Below, piece by piece: positions 1,604 through 23,524 of a DNA stretch of 32,304 bases. Below the pieces are notes generated by a model. That model worked only from the letters and a program-made list of their open reading frames with translations. It had not been told where the DNA came from and did no database searches. Origin of the DNA: Nocardiopsis sp. MG754419 (lineage in GTDB: Bacteria; Actinomycetota; Actinomycetes; Streptosporangiales; Streptosporangiaceae). Position 1 is the first letter of the stretch; each line of letters begins with the position of its first letter. The position numbers were made by a program, and so were the translations under genes. The stretch lies in NCBI RefSeq assembly GCF_018207095.1, contig NZ_QOCZ01000048.1, forward strand, positions 1-32,304, read 5' to 3'.

Positions 1604-1614
1604 CCCCACCGGCC

Positions 1615-1646
1615 ACCGTGGCCGGGCCCTCGGGCCCGGCCACGGT
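1615..1646. terminator. Bidirectional terminator between permease and symporter
   Basis: A perfect 15-bp stem (arms 1615-1629 and 1632-1646, almost entirely G/C) with a 2-nt gap lies 12 bases after the permease stop and between two convergent genes. There is no T-tract, as is usual in high-GC actinobacteria. A second 7-bp hairpin (1651-1657 with 1661-1667) follows at once, so each gene may use the hairpin nearest its own end. Confidence 0.9.
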
Positions 1647-1650
1647 CATG

Positions 1651-1667
1651 TCGGGGCGGGGCCCCGA
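1651..1667. terminator. Second hairpin, 3' side of the dicarboxylate symporter
   Basis: TCGGGGC (1651-1657) pairs with GCCCCGA (1661-1667) around a GGG loop, six bases from the symporter stop codon at 1674. It is probably the proximal terminator for the leftward gene. Confidence 0.6.
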
Positions 1668-1673
1668 CCATGG

Positions 1674-3125: not shown

Positions 3126-3157
3126 GGAGACCCTCCTCTGAGGGGACGGGGGTTAAT

Positions 3158-3183
3158 GGAATCCGTATTCCTCATTACGGAAT
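3158..3183 (-). promoter_or_regulatory. Alternating GGAAT/ATTCC repeats upstream of dctA
   Basis: GGAAT (3158-3162), ATTCC (3167-3171) and GGAAT (3179-3183) alternate in orientation, and TCCGTA (3162-3167) is mirrored by TACGGA (3176-3181). The cluster is a clearly AT-richer island 33-58 bases upstream of the dctA start, so it is a likely regulator site within the dctA promoter. The half-site is reminiscent of IclR-type operators, but the regulator is unknown. Confidence 0.5.
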
Positions 3184-3311
3184 ATGGAGACCGACACAGA
3201 GTAAGGCACGTCACAGGAGTCACGCAATGAACATGTGAACAAACCCGCTGGTAACAACCGACCCCTGGCGAGACACGGCGCACCACCCGACAGACACCAC
3301 GCGTGGGAGCT

Positions 3312-3341
3312 TTGACACCCGGCGCGACCGCGCCCTAAGTT
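3312..3341 (+). promoter_or_regulatory. Promoter of the molybdenum hydroxylase operon
   Basis: TTGACA (3312-3317) is a perfect -35 hexamer. It is followed after 18 bases by TAAGTT (3336-3341) as a -10. The transcript would start near 3348, about 30 bases before the ATG at 3378. Confidence 0.7.
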
Positions 3342-3355
3342 GTCAATGTCAACTT
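3337..3355. promoter_or_regulatory. Operator overlapping the -10 of the hydroxylase promoter
   Basis: AAGTTGTCAATGTCAACTT has perfect 6-bp outer arms (AAGTTG/CAACTT) around a 7-bp centre. It covers the -10 hexamer and the predicted start site, which is the position expected for a repressor. No regulator gene sits next to the operon, so its binder is unknown. Confidence 0.6.
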
Positions 3356-3377
3356 TCGTCTGCCCGGGAGGCCGCCC

Positions 3378-5990: not shown

Positions 5991-6973
5991 CCGTGACCCG
6001 ACCCACGAGTGTGGCCGAGGTGACGGCGGACCTGGCCCGGGAGGGCGTGCGTGCGCGCGCCGGCGGCACCGACCTGTCCGCCTGTCTGGAGACCGGGGTG
6101 ATCGCTCCGGGTCCCCTCGTCGACCTGTTGGACGTGCCCGGGCTCGACGGCGTCACCTGGAACGCGGACGGTTCGGCCCGGGTGGGGGCGATGACCACGG
6201 TCGCCACGGTGGCCGCCGACCCTCGGCTGGCGACGGCCTATCCGGCCTTGGCGGCCACGGCACGGGCGTTGGCCACCCCCCAGGTGCGCGGGGTCGCCAC
6301 CGTGGGCGGCAACCTGTTGCAGCGCAACCGCTGCGCCTATCTGCGCAACCCGGCCTTCGACTGTTTCCAGACCGGCGGGGACACGTGTCCGGCCCGGACC
6401 GGCGACCACCTGCGCGGCGTGGTCGTGGACCAGGGTCCGTGCGCGGCGCCGCACCCCTCGTCGTTGGCGATGGCGTTCCTGGTCTACGAGGCGACGGCGC
6501 ACCTGGAGCGTGCGTCCGCCACCGCCCTGCCCGTGGCGGACCTCTACGACGGCACCGACCCCACCCGCGACCACGTCCTGGACGCACGGTCCCTGATGAC
6601 CGCCGTGGAGTTGCCGGTGCCGGTGGCGGGTGAACGGGCCGCCTACCGACGGGCGACCGGGCGCTCCCGCGCGGAGTGGCCCCTGGTGGAGGCCGTGGTC
6701 CGGGTGGAGTGCGCGGACGGTGGCCGGGGGCCGGTGGAACGGGCCGCGGTGGCGGTGGGCGGTGTGGCCCGCACCCCGCTGCGGCTGGAAGCCCTCGCGG
6801 AGACGTTGGTGGGTGCGGAGCCCGGTCGGGACCTCCCCGTCCGGGTGACCGAGGCGCTGTCCGACCTGGCCGACCTGTGCTCGCCGCTGCCCGCCACGGG
6901 GTACAAGGTCCCCTTGCTCCAGGGCACGGTGCGTGATGTCGTCGAGACGGTTCTGGGGATCACCGGCCGGTGA
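5987..6973 (+). CDS. FAD-binding subunit of the molybdenum hydroxylase, with putative 4Fe-4S site
   Basis: A 328-residue partner of the upstream fusion protein that passes electrons from the Fe-S clusters to FAD. The N-terminal FAD motif RAGGTDLSACLETG (about 24-37) and the second flavin segment TPQVRGVATVGGNLLQRNRC (97-116) are typical of CO dehydrogenase/xanthine dehydrogenase flavoproteins. Four cysteines, C116, C126, C134 and C152, sit in an inserted loop. This resembles the loop that binds an extra 4Fe-4S cluster in PaoB/YagS and in the beta subunit of 4-hydroxybenzoyl-CoA reductase. The C-terminal domain is the usual CO_deh_flav_C fold. The start overlaps the stop of the preceding gene by four bases, so the two products are made together. 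A perfect terminator stem follows 26 bases after the stop. Confidence 0.9.
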   Translation: MTVTRPTSVAEVTADLAREGVRARAGGTDLSACLETGVIAPGPLVDLLDVPGLDGVTWNADGSARVGAMTTVATVAADPRLATAYPALAATARALATPQVRGVATVGGNLLQRNRCAYLRNPAFDCFQTGGDTCPARTGDHLRGVVVDQGPCAAPHPSSLAMAFLVYEATAHLERASATALPVADLYDGTDPTRDHVLDARSLMTAVELPVPVAGERAAYRRATGRSRAEWPLVEAVVRVECADGGRGPVERAAVAVGGVARTPLRLEALAETLVGAEPGRDLPVRVTEALSDLADLCSPLPATGYKVPLLQGTVRDVVETVLGITGR

Positions 6974-6999
6974 TCCGGCCCCCACCGAACGGCCCCGGG

Positions 7000-7048
7000 C
7001 CGCCCCGGGCCGCCGTGGCGAGGCGGCCCGCCCGGCGGCCCGGGGCGG
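7000..7048 (+). terminator. Terminator of the molybdenum hydroxylase operon
   Basis: A perfect 15-bp G/C stem (arms 7000-7014 and 7034-7048) closes a 19-nt loop that can itself fold. It lies just after the FAD subunit and before the protease gene, so it separates the two transcripts. It also argues against a protease start at the GTG (6970) that overlaps the previous stop. Confidence 0.85.
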
Positions 7049-7113
7049 ATGTGTTCACCGTGGGCGGAGCCCCGTTCCGGCATCGTCGGCGCCATGAGGG
7101 TGTTGTGCACCAT

Positions 7114-8067
7114 ATGGACGCTGAACACGACGCAGCGGAACACGAGGCGATGGACTCCTACAGCCGGGTCGTGACGGCCGTCGCGGAACGGGTGCTGCCG
7201 AGCGTGGCCGCCCTGTCCCTGCGCGGCGCGCGCGGTACCGGCGCCGGTTCGGGTGTCGTCTTCACCCCGGACGGGCTTCTCCTGACGAGCGCCCACGTCG
7301 TGCAGGGGATGACCACGGGCACGGCCACCTCCGACGACGGAGTCGAGACCCCGGTCCGGGTGGTGGGCTCCGACCCTCTCTCGGACCTGGCCGTGCTCCG
7401 CGCCGACCGGGCCACCGCTCCCCCGGCGGAGTTGGGCGACGCGGACGTGCTGCGCACGGGACAACTGGTGGTGGCCCTGGGCAACCCGCTGGGGTTGTCG
7501 GGCTCGGTGACCGCGGGGATCGTGTCCGGTCTGGGTCGCTCCCTGCCGGCCCGGGAAGGGCGCCACACACGCCTGATCGACGACGTCATCCAGACCGACG
7601 CGGCCCTCAACCCCGGCAGTTCGGGTGGGGCCCTGGCCGACTCCCGGGGTCGGGTGGTCGGCGTCAACACGGCCGTGGCCGGGTACGGGCTGGGCCTGGC
7701 CGTACCGATCAACCCCACCACGCGGCGCATCATCGGTGACCTGGTCTCCCGGGGCCGGGTGCGACGAGCGTGGCTGGGGGTGGCGGGCGCACCGGTGCCG
7801 CTCCCGCCGGCGACGGCCGAGAGCACCGGACGACGTCAGGGCCTGCGCGTGATCGAGGTCGTGCCGGGCAGCCCCGCGGGTGTGGCCGGGATCTATCTCG
7901 GTGACGTGATCCTGTCCGTCGCCGGGCGACCGATCGAGAACGGGCAGGCGCTGCAACGCCTCATGTTGGGCGACGCGGTGGGCACACGGATGCCCGTCAC
8001 CGTTCTGCGCCGCGGGGCGCTGGTGGACGTGGTGGCCGTCCCCGAGGAGTTGTCGACGGCCCGTTGA
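7114..8067 (+). CDS. HtrA/DegP-like serine protease with one PDZ domain, no membrane anchor
   Basis: A 317-residue trypsin-like S1C protease. From the chosen ATG the triad is H61 (TSAHVVQG), D91 (DPLSDLAVL) and S170 (NPGSSGGAL), all intact. A PDZ domain spans about 240-312 with GLRVIEVVPGSPAGVAGIYLGD. Most actinobacterial HtrA proteins have an N-terminal membrane segment or signal peptide; none is visible here, so a cytoplasmic site is inferred. The open frame extends left into the terminator at 7000-7048, so the start must lie later: ATG 7114, with GTG 7105 and ATG 7150 (GAGG just upstream) as alternatives. It stands alone, with a terminator on each side. Substrates are unknown; a role in protein quality control is the family expectation. 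Confidence 0.88.
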   Translation: MDAEHDAAEHEAMDSYSRVVTAVAERVLPSVAALSLRGARGTGAGSGVVFTPDGLLLTSAHVVQGMTTGTATSDDGVETPVRVVGSDPLSDLAVLRADRATAPPAELGDADVLRTGQLVVALGNPLGLSGSVTAGIVSGLGRSLPAREGRHTRLIDDVIQTDAALNPGSSGGALADSRGRVVGVNTAVAGYGLGLAVPINPTTRRIIGDLVSRGRVRRAWLGVAGAPVPLPPATAESTGRRQGLRVIEVVPGSPAGVAGIYLGDVILSVAGRPIENGQALQRLMLGDAVGTRMPVTVLRRGALVDVVAVPEELSTAR

Positions 8068-9141: not shown

Positions 9142-10464
9142 TCAGGGCAGGTCAGGGGTGGGGGCCTGGCTGCCTTCGGTGAGCGTGGGCCGGGACGGGC
9201 CGAACATGTCGCGCAGGTCCAGCTCGCCCTCGATGGCCCCGACGAGCCTGCGCACGCCCTCCCGGATCTGTTCCGGGGTGGGGTAGCAGAAGCTCAGTCG
9301 CATGCTGTCACGGCCGCGGTCGTCGGCGAAGAAGCCGGTGCCGGGCACGTAGGCGACACGGTGGTTGACCGCGCGTGGCAGCATGGCCTTGGCGTCGATG
9401 CCCTCGGGCAGGGTGGCCCAGACGAAGAACCCGCCCTCGGGCCGGGTCCAGGTACAGCCGTCCGGCATCATCGCGGTGAGCGCCCCGAGCAGGGCGTCGC
9501 GGCGTTCGCTGTACATGCTGTTGAACGCCTTGATCTGCTCGCGCCACGGGAAGGTGTCGAGGTAGCGGCGGACCACGAGCTGGTTGAACGTGGAGTGGCT
9601 GAGCATGGCCGACTCCGCGGCCAGGACGAGCTTGGCGCGCACGGCGGACGGCGCCAGTGCCCAGCCGATGCGCAGGCCCGGCGAGAGCGTCTTGGACAGC
9701 GACCCCAGGTAGATCACGTTGCCCTCGCCCTGCGAGTACAGGGTGGGCTGCGGTTCACCGTCGTAGCGGAGCAGGCCGTAGGGGTTGTCCTCGACCACCA
9801 GGACGTCGTGGCGTCGGCAGATCTCCATCACGCGCGAGCGCCGCTCGGCGGACATCGTGATGCCGCCGGGGTTCTGGAAGTTGGGGATCGTGTAGAAGAA
9901 CTTGACGGTGTGGCCGGACGCGGCGGCGTGGGTGAGGGCGTGGTCGAGCTGGTCGGGGTCGACGCCCTGGTCGTCCATGCCCACGTGTCGGATGTCGGCC
10001 TGGAAGGCCGCGAAGGTGTTGATCGCGGTGACGTAGGTGGGCGCCTCGGTCAGGACCACGTCTCCGGGGTCGACGAAGACCCGGGTGATGAGGTCCAGGG
10101 CCTGTTGGGAGCCGACGGTGACGATGACGTCGTCGGGGACCGACTGGATGCCCTCCAGGGTCATGTACTCGCAGATCTGCTCGCGCAGGACGGGATCGCC
10201 TTGGGCGGACCCGTATTGGAGCGCGGCGGCGCCCTCCTCGGAGACGACGTCCTTGACCAGGTCACCGATCTGTTCGAGCGGCAGGGCGGCGACGTTGGGC
10301 ATACCGCCCGCCAGCGAGACGATCTCGGGACGGGACGCGACGGCGAAGAGTGCCCGGACCTCCGATGCGACCATGCCCTGTGCTCGGTGTGCGTAACGGC
10401 CGACGTGCGGGTCGATACGCGAGCCCTGTTGCCCGGGCTGCTGCTCTCGGTGGTCAGCGGACAC
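9142..10464 (-). CDS. PLP-dependent aminotransferase, class I/II (LysN/2-aminoadipate type)
   Basis: A 440-residue fold-type I aminotransferase. The PLP lysine is K258 within YLGSLSKTLSPGLRIGW. Upstream are the phosphate-binding GSQQALDL (118-125), the NFQNPGG loop (195-201) and EDNPYG (225-230), where the aspartate contacts the pyridine nitrogen. It is the free-standing relative of the MocR regulators' aminotransferase domain; no N-terminal DNA-binding domain is present. Family members transfer amino groups from 2-aminoadipate, branched-chain, aromatic or other amino acids, so the substrate is open. The GTG start is supported by GGAGGT about five bases upstream. It is first in an operon with the ddl-like ligase, which suggests it supplies or recycles an amino acid for that enzyme. 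Confidence 0.9.
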   Translation of the reverse strand: MSADHREQQPGQQGSRIDPHVGRYAHRAQGMVASEVRALFAVASRPEIVSLAGGMPNVAALPLEQIGDLVKDVVSEEGAAALQYGSAQGDPVLREQICEYMTLEGIQSVPDDVIVTVGSQQALDLITRVFVDPGDVVLTEAPTYVTAINTFAAFQADIRHVGMDDQGVDPDQLDHALTHAAASGHTVKFFYTIPNFQNPGGITMSAERRSRVMEICRRHDVLVVEDNPYGLLRYDGEPQPTLYSQGEGNVIYLGSLSKTLSPGLRIGWALAPSAVRAKLVLAAESAMLSHSTFNQLVVRRYLDTFPWREQIKAFNSMYSERRDALLGALTAMMPDGCTWTRPEGGFFVWATLPEGIDAKAMLPRAVNHRVAYVPGTGFFADDRGRDSMRLSFCYPTPEQIREGVRRLVGAIEGELDLRDMFGPSRPTLTEGSQAPTPDLP

Positions 10465-13002: not shown

Positions 13003-14316
13003 CTAGAGGTGGTCGAACAGGGCCTCCGCCCTGGTCCGGTCCCGCAGGGCGCGCACGCCGGGGGCCAGGGACCCGGGCAACAGGTCCCGGAGCGTGTCGA
13101 GGCCGTGCACCCGCACGGTGACCTCGTCGGTGAAACGGTAGGGGCGGCTCTCGATCACTCCCCCGAGGTTGCGCCGCATCCGGGAGAGTTCCGCGCGCAC
13201 CGTGACCACGTGGTCGCCGGACCCGAACACGTCCTCGGACAGCTGCGCGCCCGAACGCCCCGCCCGGTGCACCGCCAACAGGAGCAGCAGTTCGGTGTGG
13301 CGCGGGGTGAGGTTGTGCACCCACTCACCGCTGGGGCCGGCCACGGTCACCGAGGACGTGCCCGGCCGGGACAGGTCCAGGGTGACCGACGAGGCCCCGG
13401 GGGTCTCCTCCGGGCGCGGACGGATGAGCCACCCGCCCGGTAGGGGTTCCAGGGCGCACTCGCCCAGCGCCGGGATCCACGCCGTGCCTCCGTCGCAGTG
13501 CTTGGGCAGCAGCACCCGACGGACCGGTTCCATGTGCACGGCGGCGGCGGTCCATCCCACGTCGTCCACGACCAGGGCGGGGCGGGTGAGCCCGGCCAGG
13601 AGGGGTGCGGCCACCGAGCGCAGTCGTTCCAGGTGGGTGTGGTGCAGACCCTGGAGGTGCGCCTGGGCCAGCTGGGCGACCGCGCTGACCAGGGCCAGGG
13701 TCGAGGGATGGATGGTGGAGACGGGGCCGGTCACGTCAATGGCGCCGAGCAGGCGTCCGTCCCGGGGGTCGTGCACGGGCGCACAGGCGCAGGTGAGGGC
13801 GTGCAGGCTCCGGACGTAGTGTTCGGCCGAATAGACCTGCACGGGACGCCCCACCACCAGTGCGGTGCCGATGGCGTTGGTTCCGGTGCTGCCCTCGTTC
13901 CAGTAGGACCCCTCGACCAGGCCGACCCGGTCGCCGATCGCGCGCATCCGGCGGGACCCCTCCCGCCAGAGCACCTGTCCGGTGGCGTCGGTGACCAGCA
14001 TGATGTGGTCGGCCTCGTCGGCCACCGAGACCAGGGACCGGCGGATCAGCGGCAGCACCTCGGCGAGGGGCGAGGCGTCGCGTTGGCGTTGGAGTTCGTC
14101 CAGTCGCGCCATACGCGGCGGGGGTCCGCCGTCGGGGTCGATACCGAACCGCCGCATGCGTTCCCAGGAGTCCTCGATCACCGGACGCAGCGGCACGGGC
14201 GTGGGCCGTCCCGAGAGCAGCGCGTCGTGGACACGGCGGAGCTGGTCGGCGTGCTCGCGCGCGTCCACCCCGGAGGGCAGCGCCGTGTCCAGTGCAGGAA
14301 ACGTCATGCGGTTCAT
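13003..14316 (-). CDS. GAF-domain transcriptional regulator with C-terminal winged helix
   Basis: A 437-residue cytosolic regulator of the type that often controls alcohol or aldehyde dehydrogenase genes in actinobacteria. After RPVIEDSWERMRRFGIDP comes a GAF domain (roughly residues 75-220) resembling the AcoR sensor region: LVTDATGQVLWREG, then GSYWNEGSTGTNAIGTAL and a histidine/cysteine segment HYVRSLHALTCACAPVHDP. No AAA+ sigma-54 activator domain follows. Instead the last 80 residues form a winged helix (LTPRHTELLLLLAVHRAGRSG...SRMRRNLGGVIESRPYRF). The start at 14316 fits the family and has GGAGG nine bases upstream; the frame stays open further left but that sequence is not protein-like. 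The ligand and targets are unknown. No dehydrogenase is adjacent; the zinc alcohol dehydrogenase and aldehyde dehydrogenase genes lie 7-10 kb away. Confidence 0.82.
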   Translation of the reverse strand: MNRMTFPALDTALPSGVDAREHADQLRRVHDALLSGRPTPVPLRPVIEDSWERMRRFGIDPDGGPPPRMARLDELQRQRDASPLAEVLPLIRRSLVSVADEADHIMLVTDATGQVLWREGSRRMRAIGDRVGLVEGSYWNEGSTGTNAIGTALVVGRPVQVYSAEHYVRSLHALTCACAPVHDPRDGRLLGAIDVTGPVSTIHPSTLALVSAVAQLAQAHLQGLHHTHLERLRSVAAPLLAGLTRPALVVDDVGWTAAAVHMEPVRRVLLPKHCDGGTAWIPALGECALEPLPGGWLIRPRPEETPGASSVTLDLSRPGTSSVTVAGPSGEWVHNLTPRHTELLLLLAVHRAGRSGAQLSEDVFGSGDHVVTVRAELSRMRRNLGGVIESRPYRFTDEVTVRVHGLDTLRDLLPGSLAPGVRALRDRTRAEALFDHL

Positions 14317-14823
14317 CGGGGCGTGCCTCCGCGGCGCGGCGGGTGGGCAGGTCCCTTCCTCCTTCTGTGCGACCGGCCCCCGTGGGGCCGGGGATTCCGT
14401 TACTGCGTCCACAAGTTTCCTGGTTCGTCTCGGGCGGGACCAAGAGAACAGGGAGAGACCCTTGTTTCGGAGGTCATTTCGACATCGTCCTTCCGTTTCC
14501 TGTTCCGGCGCCCCACGGTCGCCCCATGGGGCACGGTTCGGTGCACTGACGACCCTGTTCTCCGGATCGCCGTGGGCGGAGGGGACGGCGGCCCGGAAGG
14601 CGCCGTCGCCCCGCGCCGTGTCCACCACCTCGGGAAACATCCCCAGATTCGAGCGGACCGACGAAACGTTCACGAAAATGGCCGGATCCGGCCAACGGCG
14701 CTCATATGGCGCGCGATCGGGAGGTCGGGCGTTCACGCAGGTCGGATCGGCGCCCGCAGGTTTCGGTCGCTCCCGAGCACGTGCAGTGGCCGGTGCGGCG
14801 TCCCTTGAGTTCGCACGTGCGGG
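14317..14823 (-). other. Long upstream region of the GAF-domain regulator
   Basis: About 500 bases between two leftward regulator genes with no supported coding sequence. An 8-bp G/C hairpin (14373-14380 with 14384-14391) lies in the leader, about 57-75 bases before the start codon. AAGGAGGA on the minus strand near 14366-14358 looks like a strong ribosome binding site but has no ATG, GTG or TTG at working distance. GCACGTGC occurs twice near 14778 and 14814. I could not pick a convincing promoter. Confidence 0.4.
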
Positions 14824-16407
14824 TCAGGGGCGGCCGTCACGGCGTGTGAGGGCGAACCACAGACGCATGCGCCGCTCGGGATCGGCCAGGTCCACGCCGA
14901 GGTCGCGTTCGATCCGACCGATGCGGTAGCGGACGCTGTTGCGGTGGACCCCGAGGTCGCCGGCGGCCCGGTCCCAGCTACCGTGCCGGGCCAACCACGC
15001 GTGCAGCGTGGTGCGCAGGGTACGGGCGGTGGCGGTGTCCTCGTCGAGCGGTCCCAGGACCCGGCGGCTCAGCCCGCCCGCCTGCGCGTTCAGCAGGGCG
15101 TCGAAGGGTTCGCCGTCGGCCGACCCCGCCAGGGGGCCGCCCACGGTGCGGGCGCGCACCAACAGGGCGCCGGCCTCGCGGTCGGCCTCGGGCAGCCCCT
15201 CCGGTTCCGTGACCGCGCTCAGGGCACCGATCCACCCGTGGGACCGCAGCAGATCCAGCTGCTCCCGGTGGGCCTGCTCGCCCCGGTCGGCCAGGACGGC
15301 GCGCACGACGGTCTCGGACCCCTCGGTGTCGGGGGCCAGGTCGGTCACGTGAGTGCCCAGGGGCAGGGCCCCCGCGGCGGTGCGACGCCCCCGGGACAGG
15401 GGCGCGGCCCGCAGGACCCGGTACCCGCCGTCCGCGGGGTCCCCGACCGCCGGGTCGGCGTCGCTCCGGGGGCGAAGGTCCCCGGACGCGGGGGCGCGGG
15501 TGTCGGCCAGCGCGGCCAGGGCCGCCAACGCACGCGGGTTCAGGGCACCGTCCAGTAGCAGGGCGGTGAGCGGCAGACCCGGGACCGGTGGTTCCTCCCC
15601 GGGCGCGCGCAGCAGGAGTTCGAGGAGGGCGGTGGCCGTGCGCAGGACGGCCCGGTCGGTGATGGCCAGGGAGCGGGGGCGACCGACCAGGACCACGCCC
15701 TGGTGCTCGGGGGGCGCCCCCACCGTGTGCAGGAAGACCTCGTCGGGACCACCGGCGACCTTGGCGCTGCGGGGCCCCGTGGGAGCGGTGAGCTTGGCGA
15801 CCAACGCGCGGACCTCGGGGGCCGGTTCGGTGGGCGCACCGATGGTGCGACGCACGGGTGCGCCCGGTTCGGCGGGGACGAGGGCGGCCCAGGCACCCAG
15901 GGCGTCGGCCAGCACGGTGAGCAGCCGGTCCACGGGGGCGGGAGCGGTGACGGCGCGGGCCAGGGCCTGGTGGGACTCGCCCAGACGGCGCAGGTCGCGC
16001 AGGTGGCGTTCCTCCAGCTCCTCCCCCACCGCACGGCTGACCGCGGCGAAGGGTGTGCTCGGGGGGACCTCCAGCAGTGGCAGGCCCTGCGCGTGACACT
16101 GTTCGATCAGGGGCGGGGGGACCGTGGCGTGGACCGGGGCCATCCCGAAGCCGACGGCGCACACCCCGGCCCGGATCAGCGAGGCCACGTAGGCCCGGAC
16201 CTCGGCGGTGGTCGTGGGCAGGTTGACCCCGGCGGTGAGCAGGAGTTCGCCACCGCGCAGGTAGTCGGCGGCCTCGACGAGTTCGCTCGCGACCGCCCAC
16301 GTGATCGAGGGATCACCCCCGTCGACGACCGTGATCAGACCCAGGTCGCGGCGGCCCGCCACCACGCTCAGCGGCACGTGGTGGACGTTGGTCCCCTGGT
16401 CCGGCAT
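14824..16407 (-). CDS. PucR-family transcriptional regulator
   Basis: A 527-residue DNA-binding regulator. The N-terminal purine-catabolism-regulator domain covers about residues 8-125 (LSVVAGRRDLGLITVVDGG, ITWAVASELVEAADYLRGGE, LLLTAGVNLP). A variable central region follows. The C-terminal HTH_30 motif is clear: HGSWDRAAGDLGVHRNSVRY then RIGRIERDLGVDLADPERRM. Start ATG 16407 has GGAGGGG immediately upstream; the frame remains open further left but the family begins here. PucR proteins sense small nitrogen compounds and usually act on neighbouring catabolic genes. It is divergent from the symporter/ureohydrolase/decarboxylase operon, so it is its likely activator or repressor (inference). The shared intergenic region contains a perfect 17-bp palindrome. 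Confidence 0.92.
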   Translation of the reverse strand: MPDQGTNVHHVPLSVVAGRRDLGLITVVDGGDPSITWAVASELVEAADYLRGGELLLTAGVNLPTTTAEVRAYVASLIRAGVCAVGFGMAPVHATVPPPLIEQCHAQGLPLLEVPPSTPFAAVSRAVGEELEERHLRDLRRLGESHQALARAVTAPAPVDRLLTVLADALGAWAALVPAEPGAPVRRTIGAPTEPAPEVRALVAKLTAPTGPRSAKVAGGPDEVFLHTVGAPPEHQGVVLVGRPRSLAITDRAVLRTATALLELLLRAPGEEPPVPGLPLTALLLDGALNPRALAALAALADTRAPASGDLRPRSDADPAVGDPADGGYRVLRAAPLSRGRRTAAGALPLGTHVTDLAPDTEGSETVVRAVLADRGEQAHREQLDLLRSHGWIGALSAVTEPEGLPEADREAGALLVRARTVGGPLAGSADGEPFDALLNAQAGGLSRRVLGPLDEDTATARTLRTTLHAWLARHGSWDRAAGDLGVHRNSVRYRIGRIERDLGVDLADPERRMRLWFALTRRDGRP

Positions 16408-16442
16408 GGCCCCTCCCTCACCGCGCACCCCGTGGTACGCGC

Positions 16443-16459
16443 TCATGTCCTGGACATGA
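16443..16459. promoter_or_regulatory. Perfect palindrome, probable PucR operator
   Basis: TCATGTCC (16443-16450), a single T, and GGACATGA (16452-16459) form a perfect 8-bp-arm palindrome 36 bases upstream of the pucR-like start and within the divergent intergenic region. Outer GTACG/CGTAC elements flank it. Binding by the neighbouring PucR protein is inferred from position. Confidence 0.65.
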
Positions 16460-16534
16460 CGTACACGAGAACGCCCCCCGACCCGGCTGGACGATCCGCA
16501 CAAAAACCGAAGCGCGACAGTGCGGTTCGGCCAC

Positions 16535-16563
16535 TGGAGTGGAGCCTACCGACTACCTACGCT
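16535..16563 (+). promoter_or_regulatory. Candidate promoter of the symporter operon
   Basis: TGGAGT (16535-16540) and TACGCT (16558-16563) are separated by 17 bases and lie about 100 bases upstream of the symporter start. The -10 is reasonable and the -35 weak, as expected for an activator-dependent promoter. Confidence 0.4.
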
Positions 16564-16658
16564 GACCGGAGCACTGTGACCTGCGTCAACATCGCCGCGG
16601 TTCCCGCTGCGCCCGCACGCCGTCCACTCCCCCGCACCACTCCCCGTGAAGGAGCGTC

Positions 16659-18161
16659 ATGCCCATCGACATCGCGGTGATCGCCGCCTATCTCCTGGGC
16701 ATGATCGGCCTGGGCTGGTGGGGCATGCGACGCGCCAAGAGCAGGTCCGACTACCTGGTGGCCGGTCGTCGTCTGGGTCCGCTGATGTACGCGGGCACCA
16801 TGGCGGCGGTCGTCCTGGGCGGTGCCTCCACCGTCGGCGGCATCGGTCTGGGCTACACCTACGGCGTCTCCGGCGCGTGGCTGGTGCTGGCGATCGGCAC
16901 CGGCATCCTCGCCCTGCACCTGTTCTTCGCCAAGCGCATCTCGCGGCTGCGGGTCTTCACGGTCTCCGAGATGCTGGACCTGCGCTACGGCGGCGACTCC
17001 CGCGTGGTGTCGGCTCTGGTCATGTGGGGCTACACCTTCGTACTGACGGTGCCCTCGACCCTGGCCTTCTCCACCATCTTCAGCGGACTGTTCGAGCTGC
17101 CGCGGGTGGTGGCGATCGTCCTGGGCGGCTCCATCGTGGTGCTGTACTCCACGATGGGCGGCATGTGGTCGGTGACGATGACCGACATGGCCCAGTTCGT
17201 CATCAAGACGATCGGACTGCTGCTCATCCTCACCCCGGTGGCCGTGTGGTCGGCGGGCGGGTTCTCCGGGATGCGCGCCTCACTCGACCCCTCCTACTTC
17301 GACCCCACCGCGATCGGTGGGCAGACCATCCTCACCTACTTCGTCATCTACGCGCTGGGGCTGCTCATCGGCCAGGACATCTGGCAGCGCGTCTTCACCG
17401 GTCGCAACGACCGGGTCGCCCGGGCCGGAGGGATCGGCGCGGGCGTCTACTGCCTGATCTACGGTGTGTGCGGCGCGCTCATCGGCACCGCCGCCGCGGT
17501 GCTGTTCCCCGACCTGGCCAACCCGGACGACGCCTTCACCCTCATGGTGGAGGCCACGCTGCCGGTGGGTGTGGCCGGTCTGGTCATCGCCGCCGCGCTG
17601 TCCGCGGTGATGTCCACCGCCAGTGGCGCCCTCATCGCCTGCTCGGCGGTGACCTCCACGGACCTGTGGCCGCGGATCCGCGCCCTGTTCGGCGCCAAGG
17701 ACACGGGCGCCGCGGCCGACGGTGACGAGGTGGCGTCCAACCGCGTGTTCACCCTGGTCCTGGGCGTGGCGAGCATCTGTGTGGCGTTGGCCGTGGACAA
17801 CGTGGTCGCCGCGCTCACCCTCGCCTACAACATCCTCGTCGGCGGTCTGCTCGTCGCGATCCTCGGCGGGCTGGTGTGGCGGCGCGGCACCCGCGCGGGC
17901 GCCCTGGCCTCGATGCTGGCCGGCTCCGTGGCCGTGATCGTGACGATGATCCTCACCGGCCTGCTCGCCAACGCACCCATCTACGTGGGGCTGGGCACCG
18001 CACTGGTGGTCTACGTGGTCGTCAGCCTGCTGACCCCGCCCACCGACCCGGCGGTACTGGAGGTCTGGCAGCGTCGACTGCGCGGCCGGGACACCGACAC
18101 CGCCGACACAGCGAAGGACACGGACGCCACGAGCGCCGTCGCCTCGCAGCAGGACCGCTGA
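16659..18161 (+). CDS. Sodium:solute symporter (SSS family)
   Basis: A 500-residue membrane transporter with about 13 predicted transmembrane segments. The N-terminal [20 protein letters not shown] and [20 protein letters not shown], and the later [29 protein letters not shown] and [20 protein letters not shown], are hallmarks of the SSS family (PutP/panthothenate-type fold). The length is typical. A hydrophilic Asp/Thr-rich tail follows the last segment. RBS GAAGGAG is six bases before the ATG. The family covers proline, choline, urea, polyamines and purines, so the substrate cannot be read directly. As first gene of an operon with a guanidino ureohydrolase and a 2-oxoacid decarboxylase, an arginine-derived or guanidino compound is a fair guess. 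Confidence 0.9.
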
Positions 18162-18198
18162 CGCCGACGTCAGAACCGACGACACAGGAACGGATCCC

Positions 18199-19158
18199 AT
18201 GAACGCACCGATCGGACCCATCGACTCCAGCCTCGTGCCGCGTTTCGCGGGCCCGGCGACCTTCGCCCGTCTGCCCCGCGTCGACCAGGTGGAGCGGGCC
18301 GACATCGCCGTGGTCGGGGTGCCCTTCGACACCGGGGTGTCCTACCGGCCCGGGGCCCGGTTCGGCCCCTCCGCCATCCGCGAGGCCAGCCGGTTGCTGC
18401 GCCCCTACCACCCGGGCCTGGACGTGGCCCCGTTCGAACGTCTGCAGGTGGTGGACGGCGGTGACATCGCGGTGAACCCCTTCTCCATCGGTGACGCCGT
18501 GGAGACCCTGGATCAGGGCGCCTCCGGGTTCGTCTCGGCCGGCACCCGACTGGTGACCCTGGGCGGCGACCACACCATCGCCCTCCCGCTGCTGCGGTCG
18601 CTGTACCGCGTGCACGGTCCGATCGCCCTGCTGCACTTCGACGCGCACCTGGACACCTGGGACACCTACTTCGGGGAGCCCTACACCCACGGCACCCCGT
18701 TCCGGCGTGCGGTGGAGGAGGGCATCCTCGACACCGAGGCCATCGCGCACGTGGGGACCCGCGGTCCGCTGTACGGCAAGAGGGACCTGGAGGACGACCG
18801 TCGCTTCGGGTTCGGCATCGTCACCGCGGCGGACGTGCTGCGCAAGGGCGTGGACGAGATCGCCGACGCCCTGCGTCAACGCATCGGCGGCCGGCCGCTG
18901 TACGTGTCGGTGGACATCGACGTCCTCGACCCGGCGCACGCCCCGGGCACCGGCACCCCCGAGGCGGGCGGCATCACGAGCCGCGAACTGTTGGAGATCC
19001 TGCGCGGGCTCACCGATCTGAACCTGGTGGGCGCCGACGTGGTGGAGGTCGCGCCGGCCTACGATCACGCCCAGATCACCTCCACGGCCGCCTCACACGT
19101 GGCCTACGACCTGGTCAGCCTGCTGGCCCTGAACCACCAGCGCGCGACGGGGGCCTGA
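18199..19158 (+). CDS. Agmatinase/guanidinobutyrase (arginase superfamily)
   Basis: A 319-residue manganese ureohydrolase that splits a guanidino compound into urea and an amine. All six metal ligands are present: H125 (GGDHTIALP), D148, H150 and D152 ([10 protein letters not shown]), D239 and D241 (SVDIDVLDP). [22 protein letters not shown] near the N-terminus marks the agmatinase branch, which includes guanidinobutyrases (GbuA) and guanidinopropionases. The loop [20 protein letters not shown] (157-176) lies where specificity is set. It sits 37 bases after the symporter gene and 4 bases before the ThDP decarboxylase gene. With a decarboxylase and an aldehyde dehydrogenase alongside, 4-guanidinobutanoate is a more natural substrate than agmatine, since an agmatine route would need neither. 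This choice is inference. Confidence 0.9.
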
Positions 19159-19162
19159 GCAC

Positions 19163-20791
19163 ATGGATGGGAGCACGCCCCGTAACGGCGGCGACCTGGT
19201 CACCGAGACCCTGACGGCGTTGGGGGCCCGGGTGTGTTTCGGCATCCCCGGTCAGCACGCGCTGGGGTTGTTCGACGCGCTGCGTCGCGCACCCGGCCTG
19301 CGGTTCGTCTCGGGCCGGGTGGAGAACAACGCGGCCTTCGCCGCGGACGGTCACGCGCGGGTGACCGGTGAGGTCACCCCGCTGTTGGTGTCCACCGGCC
19401 CCGGTGCCCTGCTCACGTTGGCCTCGCTCCAGGAGTCCCGTGCCTCCTCCGCGCCGGTGCTGGTCATCAGCAGCCAGGTACCGCGGGCGGGGCTCGGGGG
19501 CGGCCGCCACGGCTACCTGCACGAGCTGCCGGAGCAGTCCGCGTCCTTCGGCAACGTCACCAAGTCGACGTTCACGGTGCGGCACGCCTCCCAGATCCCC
19601 TCCGCCGTGGCCGAGGCGTGGCGGACCGCGGCCGCGGCGCCCGCGGGCCCGGTGCTGGTGGAGATCCCCCAGGACGTACTGCTGGAGCCGACGGTGGTGC
19701 CGCGCGTGCGGGACGTGACCGCCGAGCCCCGGCCGCTGTCCCCGCGCGCGGAGTCGGTGGAGGAGGCGGCCCGTTGGCTGGACGGGGCGCGACGACCGGC
19801 CGTGTTGGCCGGGGGTGGTGTGAGCCGCTCCGGCGGACGCGCGGCGCTGGTGGAGCTGGCCGAGGCGTTGCAGGCGCCGGTGGCCACGACCTTCGGCGGC
19901 AAGGACGCCTTCCCCTGGGACCATCCGCTGTCGTTGCGATCGTGGATCGAGGACCGGCACACCACCGCGTACCTGGAGAACGCCGACGTCCTGCTGGTCG
20001 TGGGCTCGGGGCTCGGCGAACTGTCCGGCAACTACCACACCATGGCGCCCCGGGGCCGGGTGGTGCAGGTGGAGGCCGACCTCGGCAAGCTGGAGTCCAA
20101 CGTGCCCGCGCTGGGGATCCACGGCGACGCGGCCCTGGTGCTGCGCGAACTGGCCGCGGGGGTCCGGCGACGCCCCGAGGACCCGGCGGTGGTCGCCGAG
20201 GTCGCCGAGGTCGGGGCACGGGTGGCCCGGCGCCTGTCCGCGCAGGACCTGGACACCGAACAGACGGTGTTGGCCGAGATCCGCGAGGCGCTGCCGGACG
20301 AGGCGTCGAGCTTTTGGGACATGACGGTGTTGGCGTACTGGGCGTGGTCGGCCTGGGACCCACGCGGCGGGGCGATGCACTCGGCCCAGGGGTCGGGTGG
20401 TCTGGGATACGGCTTCCCGGCCGCTCTGGGGGCCGCCGCGACCGGCCGCGGTCCGGTGCTGGCGGTGTCCGGCGACGGCGGAGCCATGTACTCGATCGCC
20501 GAACTGGCCACCGCGCGCCAGCACGACCTGGACGTGACCTGGCTGATCGTCGACGACGGAGGCTACGGAATCCTGCGGTCGTACATGCAGGACTCCTTCG
20601 GGGAGGCCGCCCACACCGAACTGACCCGCCCCGACTTCGTGGCACTGGCGGCCTCCTTCGGCGTGCCGGCGACGCTCACGTCACCGGAGCGGGTGGGCGC
20701 CGACCTGGCGTCGGCCCTGGCCGAGCCGGGTCCGAGCGTGGTGGTGCTGCCCATGCACGTGGGGCTGTTCGCCCCCACCCACCTGGGCTGA
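19163..20791 (+). CDS. ThDP-dependent 2-oxoacid decarboxylase, likely 2-ketoarginine (5-guanidino-2-oxopentanoate) decarboxylase
   Basis: A 542-residue enzyme of the acetolactate synthase/benzoylformate decarboxylase superfamily, with PYR, central and PP domains in order. The ThDP-activating glutamate is E54 in GRVENNAAFAADGHAR. In the PP domain the Mg-diphosphate motif starts normally at GDGGAMYSIAELATA, but the usual closing Asn-Asn is Asp-Asp (IVDDGGYGIL). The gene order suggests an AruI-like role: decarboxylation of 2-ketoarginine to 4-guanidinobutanal, upstream of the aldehyde dehydrogenase and the ureohydrolase encoded beside it. Acetolactate synthase itself is unlikely, because no small regulatory subunit gene is present. 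The start lies 4 bases after the ureohydrolase stop and has only a weak ribosome binding site, suggesting coupling. Substrate remains to be shown. Confidence 0.85.
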   Translation: MDGSTPRNGGDLVTETLTALGARVCFGIPGQHALGLFDALRRAPGLRFVSGRVENNAAFAADGHARVTGEVTPLLVSTGPGALLTLASLQESRASSAPVLVISSQVPRAGLGGGRHGYLHELPEQSASFGNVTKSTFTVRHASQIPSAVAEAWRTAAAAPAGPVLVEIPQDVLLEPTVVPRVRDVTAEPRPLSPRAESVEEAARWLDGARRPAVLAGGGVSRSGGRAALVELAEALQAPVATTFGGKDAFPWDHPLSLRSWIEDRHTTAYLENADVLLVVGSGLGELSGNYHTMAPRGRVVQVEADLGKLESNVPALGIHGDAALVLRELAAGVRRRPEDPAVVAEVAEVGARVARRLSAQDLDTEQTVLAEIREALPDEASSFWDMTVLAYWAWSAWDPRGGAMHSAQGSGGLGYGFPAALGAAATGRGPVLAVSGDGGAMYSIAELATARQHDLDVTWLIVDDGGYGILRSYMQDSFGEAAHTELTRPDFVALAASFGVPATLTSPERVGADLASALAEPGPSVVVLPMHVGLFAPTHLG

Positions 20792-20802
20792 ACCGACCAC
20801 AC

Positions 20803-20832
20803 GGGGGCGCGCGTCACCGGCGCCGCGCCCCC
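20803..20832 (+). terminator. Terminator after the symporter-ureohydrolase-decarboxylase operon
   Basis: GGGGGCGCG (20803-20811) pairs perfectly with CGCGCCCCC (20824-20832), 12 bases after the decarboxylase stop. It suggests that the aldehyde dehydrogenase gene is transcribed separately or only by read-through. Confidence 0.75.
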
Positions 20833-21133
20833 ATCACCGTCCCTGGTCCCCGCGCACGCCGGACCGGGAGTAAGCCGCCGCCCGGCCCCGCCGCCGACAT
20901 CGCACGCGTGGTCCGGAGGCGCACCACTCCTCGTCGCACCGGCGAGCGTGCGCCCCCAACGTTCTCCGGAGCCGGGCACCGGCCCTCCGGGGCACCGGTG
21001 TCCGGGCCCCCACAGGGCACGGCCCCGAGAGACCACACCCGCCCGGGCACCGGGCGCGAGGGACGACCACCGACGAGGCGCCGCTCACCACGACGCGCCG
21101 ACCGCCATCGACGACATCGAGCGAAGGAGCACC
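20833..21133 (+). other. Intergenic region before the aldehyde dehydrogenase gene
   Basis: About 300 very GC-rich bases. I find the ribosome binding site GAAGGAG at 21123-21129 but no convincing promoter hexamers or palindromes. A promoter for the dehydrogenase is expected here because a terminator precedes it. Confidence 0.4.
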
Positions 21134-22567
21134 ATGAGCACCCACCCTCCCCTGCACAGCCTGGTCGACGGCGGGCCCCTGCACCCCGCCGGCGGTGCGA
21201 CCCTGGACCTGGTCGACCCGGTCACCGAGCGGGTGACGGGGCGGGCCGGGATCTGCGGGCCGGCCGAGGTGGAGTCCGCCATGGGCTCCGCGGCCCGGGC
21301 CTTTCGCGCCTGGCGCGGGGCCACGCCGGCCGCGCGCCAGGGCGCCCTGCTCGCACTCGCCGAGGCCCTCGACGGCCGTGCCGAGGAGTTCGCCGACGCC
21401 GAATGCCGGGAGACCGGCAAACCCCGCGCCTCGGTCCTGTCCGACGAGATCCCCTTCTGCGTCGACACCCTGCGGTTCTTCGCCGGATCCGCACGACACC
21501 TGGAGGGCAAGGCGTCCGCCGAGTACGCCGAGGACCGCACCTCCTGGATCCGCCGTGAACCGGTGGGCGTGTGCGTGGGCATCACCCCGTGGAACTATCC
21601 GCTGATGATGGCGGTCTGGAAGATCGGACCGGCGCTGGCCGCCGGCAACACGGTGGTGCTCAAGCCCGCCGAGAGCACACCGACCACCACGGTGATGCTC
21701 GCCGAGATCGCCGCGCGGGTGCTGCCCGCGGGTGTGGTCAACACGGTGGTGGGCGACCGCGACACCGGCCGGGCGCTGGTGGAGCACCCCGCCGCCCGCC
21801 TGGTGTCGGTGACCGGTTCCACCCGGGCCGGGTCCCAGGTCGCCCGGGCGGCCGCCGACGATCTCAAGCGGGTCCACCTGGAACTGGGCGGCAACGCACC
21901 GGTGCTCGTCTTCGACGATGCCGACGTGGTCGAGGCCGCCGCCGGTGTGGTGTCCGCCGGGTACCTCAACGCGGGGCAGGACTGCACCGCCGCCACCCGC
22001 GTGATCGTCCAGGAGGAGGTGCACGACGCCTTCGTGGCCGAACTGACCCGCCGGGCCGCCGCGCAGGTCACCGGCCGCCCCTCCGACGAGACGAGCGACT
22101 TCGGTCCGCTCAACAACGCCGATCAGTTCGCCCGGGTCACCGGACTGCTGGACCGGCTGCCCGCCCACGCCCGTGTGGAGACCGGTGGTCACCGGGTGGG
22201 TGAGCGGGGGTTCTTCCTGGCCCCCACGGTGGTCTCGGGGGTGCGCGCCGACGACGAGATCGTGCGGGAGGAGGTGTTCGGACCCGTGGTGACGGTGCAG
22301 CGCTGTGCCGACGAGGCCGAGGGCGTGGAACTCGCCAACGGGGTCGAGCAGGGTCTGGCGTCCTCGGTGTGGACCCGTGACCACGCCCGGGCGCTGCGGG
22401 TCTGCGCCGCGTTGGACTTCGGGGCGGTGTGGGTGAACACCCACGGCGACCTGCTGTCGGAGATGCCGCACGGTGGGTTCAAGCGCTCCGGCTACGGCAA
22501 GGACCTGTCCGCCTACAGCCTGGAGGACTACACCCGGGTCAAGCACGTGATGAGCGCGTTGTCCTGA
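21134..22567 (+). CDS. Aldehyde dehydrogenase, gamma-amino/guanidinobutyraldehyde type
   Basis: A 477-residue NAD(P)-dependent aldehyde dehydrogenase. Catalytic residues are in place: N154 (TPWNYP), K177 (LKPAES), E250 (ELGGNAP) and C284. The active-site segment NAGQDCTAATR closely resembles that of PatD and related 4-aminobutyraldehyde dehydrogenases, which set it apart from general aldehyde dehydrogenases. In this context the substrate could be 4-guanidinobutanal made by the neighbouring decarboxylase, giving 4-guanidinobutanoate for the ureohydrolase. 4-aminobutanal is the alternative. The ATG at 21134 has GAAGGAG five bases upstream; the frame is open further left, but that part lacks dehydrogenase sequence. 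It converges on the dimethylargininase-like gene across a very strong terminator. Confidence 0.92.
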   Translation: MSTHPPLHSLVDGGPLHPAGGATLDLVDPVTERVTGRAGICGPAEVESAMGSAARAFRAWRGATPAARQGALLALAEALDGRAEEFADAECRETGKPRASVLSDEIPFCVDTLRFFAGSARHLEGKASAEYAEDRTSWIRREPVGVCVGITPWNYPLMMAVWKIGPALAAGNTVVLKPAESTPTTTVMLAEIAARVLPAGVVNTVVGDRDTGRALVEHPAARLVSVTGSTRAGSQVARAAADDLKRVHLELGGNAPVLVFDDADVVEAAAGVVSAGYLNAGQDCTAATRVIVQEEVHDAFVAELTRRAAAQVTGRPSDETSDFGPLNNADQFARVTGLLDRLPAHARVETGGHRVGERGFFLAPTVVSGVRADDEIVREEVFGPVVTVQRCADEAEGVELANGVEQGLASSVWTRDHARALRVCAALDFGAVWVNTHGDLLSEMPHGGFKRSGYGKDLSAYSLEDYTRVKHVMSALS

Positions 22568-22645
22568 CCTCCGGCCCGGGGCGGTGCCCGTCGGTCCTCG
22601 CCCCTCGCCAGGGCAACCGGCGCGGCACCTCCCGAGGACGTCGCG

Positions 22646-22680
22646 GGGCGGATGCCGCGGGGGACCCGCGGCATCCGCCC
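22646..22680. terminator. Bidirectional terminator between aldehyde dehydrogenase and ddaH-like gene
   Basis: A perfect 16-bp stem (22646-22661 with 22665-22680) with a 3-nt loop. It ends 7 bases before the stop codon of the leftward gene and so serves both convergent transcripts. One of the strongest hairpins in the window. Confidence 0.93.
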
Positions 22681-22687
22681 GTCGCCG

Positions 22688-23524
22688 TCAGACCCGCGGG
22701 TGGCGCAGTTCCAGCGTGCAGCACTTGGCGCCGCCTCCGGCCTTGCGGAGTTCGTCGAGTTCGACCGGGTGGACCGTGTACCCGAGTCCACGGAGCCGGT
22801 CGGCGAGCGCGACGGCCTCGGCGGCGATGACGACGTTGCGGCCGTCGCAGACCGCGTTGAGGCCGAGCACCGCCGCGTCCTCCTCGGTGGCCAGGAGCGC
22901 GTCGGGATACAGGGAGCGCAGCACCCGGCGGCTGCCCTCGGAGAAGGCGCCCGGATAGTAGGCGACCCGGTCCCCGGCCAGGGCGAACAGCGCGGTGTCG
23001 AGGTGGTAGAAGCGCGGATCGACCAGTTGGAGGGTGACGACCGGGCGCCGCAGGAGCCGCTCGGCCTCCTGGTGGGCGGCGGCCTCGGTGCGGAACCCGG
23101 TGGCGGCCAGGATGACGTCGTCGAAGGTGATGAAGTCGCCCTCGCCCTCGTTGACGTGCTTGGGTTCCCGCGTCTCGGCGTAGCCGGCCTGGCGGAACCA
23201 GTCGAGGTAGGCGGGCCCCTCGGGGGTGCGCTCGGCGCTGGCGAACCGTGCCCCGTAGACCCGCCCGTCCACGACCAGGGCGCCGTTGGCGGCGAAGACC
23301 ATGTCGGGCAGCCCCTCGATGGGCGCGATCTCGCTCACCCGGTGGCCGAGCGACCGGTACAGATCACGGAGCCCCTCCCACTGCCGGATGGCGCGGTCGC
23401 GGTCGACGCCGGCCGCGGGGTCCATCCAGGGGTTGATCGCGTAGTCCACCGCGAAGTACGCGGGTCTGCACATCAGATAGTGCCGGGGCACCGCCACCGG
23501 CGCCGGGTCTGCGGGTCTCACCAT
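22688..23524 (-). CDS. ddaH: Dimethylargininase-like guanidino hydrolase (DDAH, pentein family)
   Basis: A 278-residue cytosolic pentein enzyme expected to hydrolyse N-methylated arginine, or arginine itself, at the guanidino carbon to citrulline. The N-terminus MCRPAYFAVDYAINPWMD, the segment GLPDMVFAANGALVVDGRV, the histidine in DPRFYHLDTALFAL (H174) and the C-terminal cysteine in GGGAKCCTLEL (C268, with C269 adjacent) match the family. In many actinobacteria this gene is paired with ornithine aminotransferase (rocD); here that partner is missing and the gene stands alone. The ATG at 23524 has GGGGAGG about five bases upstream. Its place inside a guanidino-compound cluster supports a role in arginine metabolism. 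Strict specificity for methylated arginine is not certain. Confidence 0.88.
   Translation of the reverse strand: MVRPADPAPVAVPRHYLMCRPAYFAVDYAINPWMDPAAGVDRDRAIRQWEGLRDLYRSLGHRVSEIAPIEGLPDMVFAANGALVVDGRVYGARFASAERTPEGPAYLDWFRQAGYAETREPKHVNEGEGDFITFDDVILAATGFRTEAAAHQEAERLLRRPVVTLQLVDPRFYHLDTALFALAGDRVAYYPGAFSEGSRRVLRSLYPDALLATEEDAAVLGLNAVCDGRNVVIAAEAVALADRLRGLGYTVHPVELDELRKAGGGAKCCTLELRHPRV

Follow-up and report, generated by a model that had tools for sequence, protein, structure and literature searches.

The 32,304-nucleotide stretch of Nocardiopsis sp. MG754419 DNA analysed here (contig NZ_QOCZ01000048.1, positions 1 to 32,304; hereafter the window) comes from a genome of 6.4 Mb in 474 contigs and contains genes for a sodium:solute symporter (SSF) family transporter, a ureohydrolase, a thiamine diphosphate (ThDP)-dependent enzyme and an aldehyde dehydrogenase, together with a divergent gene for a PucR-type regulator. 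We hold with moderate confidence that these genes form an accessory catabolic operon that yields 4-aminobutyrate (GABA), urea and CO2 from an arginine-derived 2-oxo acid with a guanidino group, for which 2-ketoarginine (5-guanidino-2-oxopentanoate) is the likeliest candidate; the operon is probably under PucR-type control.

In the proposed pathway, for which we infer the substrates, the order of the steps, the direction of transport and the signal of PucR, uptake of the acid or of a precursor would be the task of the symporter. Decarboxylation of the 2-oxo acid by the ThDP enzyme would give 4-guanidinobutanal, which the dehydrogenase would convert to 4-guanidinobutanoate; cleavage of the latter by the ureohydrolase would release urea and leave GABA. 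A GABA transaminase whose gene lies elsewhere would then take over GABA, and urea would enter the urea-carboxylase route. GABA is a likely product, as claimed in the initial annotation of this DNA, with a GABA transaminase encoded in the Corynebacterium version of the locus and elsewhere in the genome of strain MG754419. In Corynebacterium kalidii the genes for this enzyme (TIGR00700, 575.5 bits over a cut-off of 507), for an aldehyde dehydrogenase like succinate-semialdehyde dehydrogenase (501 bits, cut-off 646) and for a flavin amine oxidase lie near the ThDP gene. The genome of strain MG754419 has matches to GABA transaminase (587 bits over 507) and, at a contig edge, to urea carboxylase (1321 bits over 1304), and no match to urease alpha, an absence that is weak evidence in 474 contigs.

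Conservation of the gene module

The list of open reading frames (ORFs) and the profile searches bear out the five genes, their places and their families as initially called (Table 1). The symporter and ureohydrolase genes are 37 bp apart, the ureohydrolase and ThDP genes 4 bp, and the dehydrogenase gene, counted from ATG 21134, begins after a further 342 bp. This start is more likely than GTG 20948, since the homology to dehydrogenase profiles begins near there.

Gene order was surveyed, as the initial annotation had proposed, in 80 loci from named genomes, the best of 135 confirmed ThDP relatives, which were picked by the ThDP protein alone. A ureohydrolase gene is present in the fetched flank of 66 of the 80 loci (58 directly upstream, on the same strand and within 2 kb), a symporter gene in 64, and the full order of divergent PucR gene, symporter, ureohydrolase, ThDP enzyme and dehydrogenase (match of at least 470 bits) in 32. 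The gene set is a real unit and more than a product of chance.

In a sample of 297 genomes of the order, searched for the ThDP enzyme and for the ureohydrolase, 32 have a listed ThDP match of at least 60% identity (in G185 in two pieces). Adjacency was counted by eye: a ureohydrolase match is adjacent in 26 of these 32 and, among the matches listed, in none of the other six (G029, G162, G185, G251, G266 and G291). Some ureohydrolase match occurs in 252 of the 297 genomes, so the ureohydrolase gene is much more widespread than the ThDP gene.

Among 40 Nocardiopsis genomes, whose gene sets were read by eye, 38 have an orthologue of the ureohydrolase, and in 16 of these 38 its locus also holds the ThDP orthologue. 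The dehydrogenase gene is found at the locus in 13 of the 16 genomes with the ThDP gene (partial in G297) versus three of the 22 without it (Fisher p 4e-5), and the symporter gene in ten of 16 versus one of 22 (Fisher p 1.5e-4), both values being uncorrected for kinship. Each of the 16 ThDP-bearing genomes has the dehydrogenase gene, the symporter gene or both, and six have no SSF gene. Ten Nocardiopsis loci without the ThDP gene were compared (L129-L135, L137-L139). Eight of them (L129-L134, L137 and L139) retain the PucR and ureohydrolase genes and have neither symporter nor ThDP gene, with a dehydrogenase remnant of 58 bits in L132; L135 has a symporter and a permease gene, and L138 a permease and a dehydrogenase gene.

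The dehydrogenase scores 514 bits with Aldedh, 647 bits with the aminobutyraldehyde dehydrogenase subfamily model PRK13473 (cut-off 615) and 511 bits with the equivalog model TIGR03374 (cut-off 909). Its motif NAGQDCTAA also occurs in the solved gamma-aminobutyraldehyde dehydrogenase 6c43 (455 bits), which is in line with the earlier assignment to the aminobutyraldehyde type; the enzyme would be fit for 4-aminobutanal or 4-guanidinobutanal. The symporter matches SSF (PF00474) with 122 bits and TIGR00813 with 128 bits (cut-off 184). A permease gene of the cytosine/purine type (PF02133, by clustering) lies between the ThDP and dehydrogenase genes in at least five named loci, of which L076 has no SSF match and L032, L035, L042 and L045 have one, so that the importer may be exchanged or doubled among loci.

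Substrates of the ureohydrolase and the ThDP enzyme

The ureohydrolase (PF00491, Arginase family, 326 bits) is the only match to this family in the genome and carries the metal-binding motifs of the family, GGDH at 122, DAHLD at 148 and DIDVLD at 239. Its closest solved structures are GbuA of Pseudomonas aeruginosa (3NIO, 282 bits), proclavaminate amidino hydrolase (PAH, 268 bits) and the guanidinopropionase GpuA of the same species (3NIP, 260 bits), followed by agmatinases with 226, 210 and 210 bits. R68 aligns with R72 of GbuA, and GpuA also has Arg there, a place at which Escherichia coli agmatinase has Ala, followed by Trp68. From work on the human enzyme it was proposed that R72 of GbuA reaches the carboxylate of a substrate bound in the adjacent subunit (PMC9772407), and Trp68 of the E. 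coli enzyme is thought to help agmatine binding (PMC8125230). Arg occupies the R68 place in 66 of 66 ThDP loci and in 16 of 16 further loci; in five plasmid loci with a match it is Arg in three, His in one (L117) and not covered in one. Given this conserved Arg, absent from E. coli agmatinase, a guanidino acid is a likelier substrate than agmatine. The earlier picture of a catabolic gene set with a guanidinobutyrase-like ureohydrolase, uptake and control is supported.

If the ureohydrolase were instead an agmatinase, the dehydrogenase would oxidise 4-aminobutanal derived from putrescine and the ThDP enzyme would have an unrelated job. The cut-offs of two NCBIfam agmatinase models are indeed passed (PRK02190, 321 bits over 302; TIGR01230, 234 bits over 174), although we judge that these models fail to tell agmatinases and guanidino-acid hydrolases apart, and the case of human AGMAT shows that an agmatinase label can be wrong (PMC9772407). 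Four ThDP-less loci of other genera (L140-L142 and L147) also speak for agmatine, in that they pair the ureohydrolase and a 57-58% identical dehydrogenase with potA-type polyamine ATP-binding cassette (ABC) transporter genes over the TIGR01187 cut-off; two of them have weakly potD-like genes, L140 has a flavin oxidase gene too, and the aldehyde may here arise by amine oxidation, with agmatine giving guanidinobutanal or putrescine giving aminobutanal. Against agmatine stand R68 with GbuA as the best solved relative, and a genome with no match to PF01276 and only a partial match of 76 bits to speA (again weak evidence in 474 contigs). Moreover, a 2-oxo-acid ThDP enzyme would be left without a role, and we regard the agmatine route as distinctly improbable.

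The clavulanate pathway has an arginine-using ThDP enzyme, and a pairing of such an enzyme with PAH was considered and rejected: PAH has His at the R68 place. No other clavulanate-type gene was found among the scanned ORFs of the window, and the clavulanate ThDP enzyme is absent from the 60 of 152 solved ThDP matches listed.

2-Ketoarginine is predicted as the substrate of the ThDP enzyme from gene context alone. The protein has all three ThDP domains, and its best-scoring model is PRK08266 (348 bits, cut-off 571). The nearest named relatives, from Nocardiopsis listeri, N. sp. JB363 and N. metallicus, are 87-89% identical. A carboligase similar to acetolactate synthase and only incidentally placed in the operon would account for several database names of relatives, which read acetolactate synthase, and for the best solved match among those listed, an acetolactate synthase with 191 bits. 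The acetolactate synthase model TIGR00118, however, gives 247 bits, far under its cut-off of 538, and the ThDP gene is linked to ureohydrolase genes in 66 of the 80 loci and to D-2-hydroxyacid dehydrogenase genes in seven, which makes a carboligase highly improbable.

A tree of 29 ThDP rows covers 14 of the 80 named loci, and its long branches make the deeper joins unsure; the clade of the window enzyme comprises 17 rows joined at 100/100. The actinobacterial clade has in common, with few changes, the stretch WDMT..YWAWSAWD, and it is speculation that its Trp and Asp residues hold a guanidinium. Outside Nocardiopsis, a D-2-hydroxyacid dehydrogenase gene adjoins the ThDP gene in L079, L082, L087, L093, L095, L100 and L110 (one locus profile-scanned, the rest called by clustering), with an overlap of 4 bp in L082 and in the Leucobacter loci L087, L095 and L100 and with a ureohydrolase gene in the flank of four of the seven. 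In other loci the ThDP gene has amino-acid ABC transporter genes, an M20 hydrolase and Lrp/AsnC regulators nearby, and the context in these lineages fits a basic 2-oxo acid as substrate. Genes for a creatininase-family protein and an amino-acid permease occur near the ThDP gene in L077, L086 and L094 (one each scanned, the rest clustered). The 55-kb plasmid of Arthrobacter sp. NicSoilB11 (L112) carries SSF, cupin-domain, speB and ThDP genes, and a second gene with the same ThDP accession nearby.

Of three plasmid proteins that carry the annotation 5-guanidino-2-oxopentanoate decarboxylase, two were scored, and both pass the AruI-type model PRK07524/NF005712 (870 bits in L113 and 597 bits in L149); one of the three shares about 36% identity with the window enzyme. 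On two Caballeronia plasmids the AruI-type gene (NF005712) is directly followed by an aldehyde dehydrogenase gene. On a Pararhizobium plasmid the AruI-type gene (597 bits) overlaps a gene for a GlcD-type FAD oxidase, with a speB gene (248 bits on PRK02190, cut-off 302) 3.9 kb away. The same activities are thus paired independently on these plasmids, which counts for the 2-ketoarginine pathway. Because two unrelated kinds of 2-hydroxyacid-oxidising enzyme adjoin two different decarboxylase clades, the loci suggest a catabolic branch for D-argininate (2-hydroxy-5-guanidinopentanoate); a literature search on argininic acid found no description of such a branch. It is a tentative proposal, with doubt outweighing belief, that actinobacteria have their own non-AruI clade of 2-ketoarginine decarboxylases, carried as a module that is exchanged while the guanidino-acid hydrolase at its centre stays constant, and fed in some lineages by D-argininate via the D-2-hydroxyacid dehydrogenase.

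The steps may also run in another order, in which the amidino group is removed first, by the ureohydrolase or in another step, the ThDP enzyme acts on 5-amino-2-oxopentanoate to give 4-aminobutanal and the dehydrogenase forms GABA. The AruI homologue IlvB1 of Sinorhizobium meliloti was sevenfold more active on 5-amino-2-oxopentanoate, and the ureohydrolase SpeB2 of this species takes guanidinobutanal, 2-ketoarginine and guanidinobutanoate (PMC7268258). With these enzyme preferences, deguanidination may precede decarboxylation, and the genes alone do not fix the order. That the window dehydrogenase is closest to aminobutyraldehyde enzymes is in line with this order, as is the best model of the ThDP enzyme, PRK08266, which is the family of a Rhizobium etli enzyme whose gene lies downstream of an aminotransferase gene. 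R68 does not separate the two orders, since it fits a carboxylate in both. The ureohydrolase would, however, have to accept a C5 keto acid, and we consider early deguanidination unlikely.

Several observations weigh against the proposed 2-ketoarginine pathway. The initial annotation had made the ThDP enzyme the counterpart of AruI, and this orthology is rejected by score, the AruI-type model giving 320 bits with a cut-off of 500, and by the tree, in which three AruI-like rows sit elsewhere with three other actinobacterial proteins at 99/98. No ureohydrolase gene is found in the fetched flank of 14 of the 80 ThDP loci, which include short stretches (e.g. L080) and long ones (e.g. L077, L078, L094, L108 and L110). 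Conversely, 22 of the 38 ureohydrolase-bearing Nocardiopsis genomes lack the ThDP gene at that place (in one of them, G029, a 64% relative is encoded in another part of the genome), so the ureohydrolase has a use without the ThDP gene. Three Nocardiopsis genomes carry the dehydrogenase without the ThDP gene, and Mycolicibacterium loci have the ThDP gene without this type of dehydrogenase. At the locus no gene for an enzyme that would supply the keto acid goes with the module, and the genome beyond it was not searched for arginine oxidases. Finally, Y157 of the ureohydrolase aligns with Y157 of GpuA, with similar surrounding residues, and not with M161 of GbuA, and Tyr is found at this place in 66 of 66 loci.

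This last point would suit a guanidino acid that is shorter or otherwise changed, for instance 3-guanidinopropanoate, with a matching keto acid for the ThDP enzyme. A C4 guanidino keto acid is not known to us from nature, and the GABA transaminase in the Corynebacterium version also speaks against a shorter chain. Residues at this place are reported to serve substrate recognition, yet an Aspergillus 4-guanidinobutyrase has Tyr there as well (Y218; PMC10833137), and we think a shorter acid very unlikely.

Control region and neighbouring genes

The regulator has both PucR-family domains, the PucR domain (76.2 bits, cut-off 33.5) at residues 61-162 and HTH_30 (72.5 bits, cut-off 27) at residues 496-552 of the ORF started at TTG; the PmfR model NF045769 gives 81 bits (cut-off 800). 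As the PucR domain begins only at residue 61, the start probably lies downstream of TTG 16503. A PucR match at E<=1e-8 is found in 55 of the 80 ThDP loci, many of them weak. Genes of the xanthine type at 161-6973 make a purine role of PucR possible for the region, but the PucR gene remains next to the ureohydrolase gene in the fetched ThDP-less Nocardiopsis loci.

The block GTGCGGTTCGGCCACTGGA of the control region recurs by eye with small changes in 18 of 24 upstream regions, from relatives with or without the module; it was not seen in those of L040, L041, L042, L044, L045 and L129. In several relatives a palindrome like TGGATGGTTCATCCA lies further upstream. Either of these is a possible PucR operator. 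A single shared operator was rejected, as no palindrome is common to all rows despite the block in 18 of 24 regions. No sigma-70 promoter match was found within 16300-22750, and the whole window has no Rfam match.

Table 1. Features of the module and of its surroundings in the window
Feature	Position	Strand	Remarks
PucR-type transcription regulator	14824..16503	-	divergent from operon; PF07905 and HTH_30
Divergent control region	16504..16658	.	contains GTGCGGTTCGGCCACTGGA
SSF (sodium:solute symporter) family transporter	16659..18161	+	PF00474; candidate importer of guanidino or keto acid
Ureohydrolase of the kind annotated as agmatinase	18199..19158	+	PF00491; predicted guanidino-acid hydrolase (guanidinobutyrase-like)
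ThDP-dependent enzyme	19163..20791	+	TPP_enzyme N, M and C; predicted 2-oxo-acid decarboxylase
Aldehyde dehydrogenase, aminobutyraldehyde type	21134..22567	+	477 aa from ATG 21134; PRK13473
Dimethylargininase (DDAH), neighbour outside the module	22688..23524	-	convergent with dehydrogenase; NF045659
Class I/II aminotransferase, neighbour	9142..10464	-	PF00155; candidate, unproven source of 2-ketoarginine
GAF-domain protein	13003-14736	-	weak similarity to DhaR activator
Xanthine-dehydrogenase-type gene (fused Fe-S and Mo parts), FAD subunit, HtrA-like protease ORF with 4-bp overlap	3378-8067	+	

The initial inventory was right on the five genes; it did not mention the adjacent dimethylargininase gene, nor an aminotransferase gene lying 4.4 kb upstream. 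The dimethylargininase (NF045659, 402 bits over a cut-off of 300) belongs to a family modelled on the Mycobacterium tuberculosis enzyme, and M. tuberculosis needs Rv2323c, annotated as dimethylargininase, for growth on arginine (PMC4569260). The dimethylargininase gene is kept in eight of the ten ThDP-less Nocardiopsis loci, among them six of the eight without symporter and ThDP genes. The aminotransferase and GAF-domain protein genes are each found in five of those eight; the L131 stretch is short, and L133 and L134 have none of the three. These three genes do not follow the module, since they are kept in loci without symporter and ThDP genes. In several Nocardiopsis-type loci the GAF-domain protein gene adjoins the PucR gene.

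The view that the cluster has no aminotransferase or oxidase of its own holds in so far as none is tied to the module; a pyridoxal phosphate (PLP)-dependent aminotransferase is nevertheless encoded nearby and is itself not tied to it, being also kept in five of the eight Nocardiopsis loci without the module. Its best solved relative is a PH0207-type aminotransferase (355 bits), with MppQ at 206 bits, and an MppP-type arginine oxidase is not supported for this class I/II aminotransferase. Over 402 aa it shares 47% identity with a PLP protein from a conjugative plasmid of Paenarthrobacter OM7 (L117), whose gene lies near a speB gene, amino-acid ABC transporter genes and an M20 hydrolase gene.

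Relation to known systems

The arginine transaminase/oxidase pathway of Pseudomonas is encoded by the genes for AruH, AruI, KauB and GbuA. The window has the same set of activities in its decarboxylase, aldehyde dehydrogenase and GbuA-like ureohydrolase. Here, unlike in Pseudomonas, the three genes stand in one operon with a symporter gene and a divergent PucR gene, the decarboxylase lies outside the AruI clade and the operon has no arginine transaminase or oxidase specifically linked to it. The ureohydrolase resembles GpuA rather than GbuA in its Tyr at the M161 place.

The window also resembles the arginine transamination network of S. meliloti (AspC, IlvB1, SpeB2 and GabD enzymes), in which an aminotransferase, a ThDP decarboxylase, a ureohydrolase and dehydrogenases are usable in several orders, but that network comprises at least 16 redundant enzymes (PMC7268258). 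The ThDP enzyme is 34% identical to the R. etli enzyme of similar gene context. Another actinobacterial protein under an agmatinase label, Medi2865 of Streptomyces mediocidicus, hydrolysed 4-guanidinobutyrate when it was tested in a search for a polyene-processing enzyme (PMC5704753). An agmatinase gene of M. smegmatis was up 3.2-fold under nitrogen limitation (PMC4617892). No description of the actinobacterial operon was found in the literature as judged by titles and the beginnings of abstracts, with subscription papers mostly outside the coverage. If the proposed pathway is true, an actinobacterium would convert an arginine-derived keto acid to GABA and urea with a decarboxylase only distantly related to AruI.

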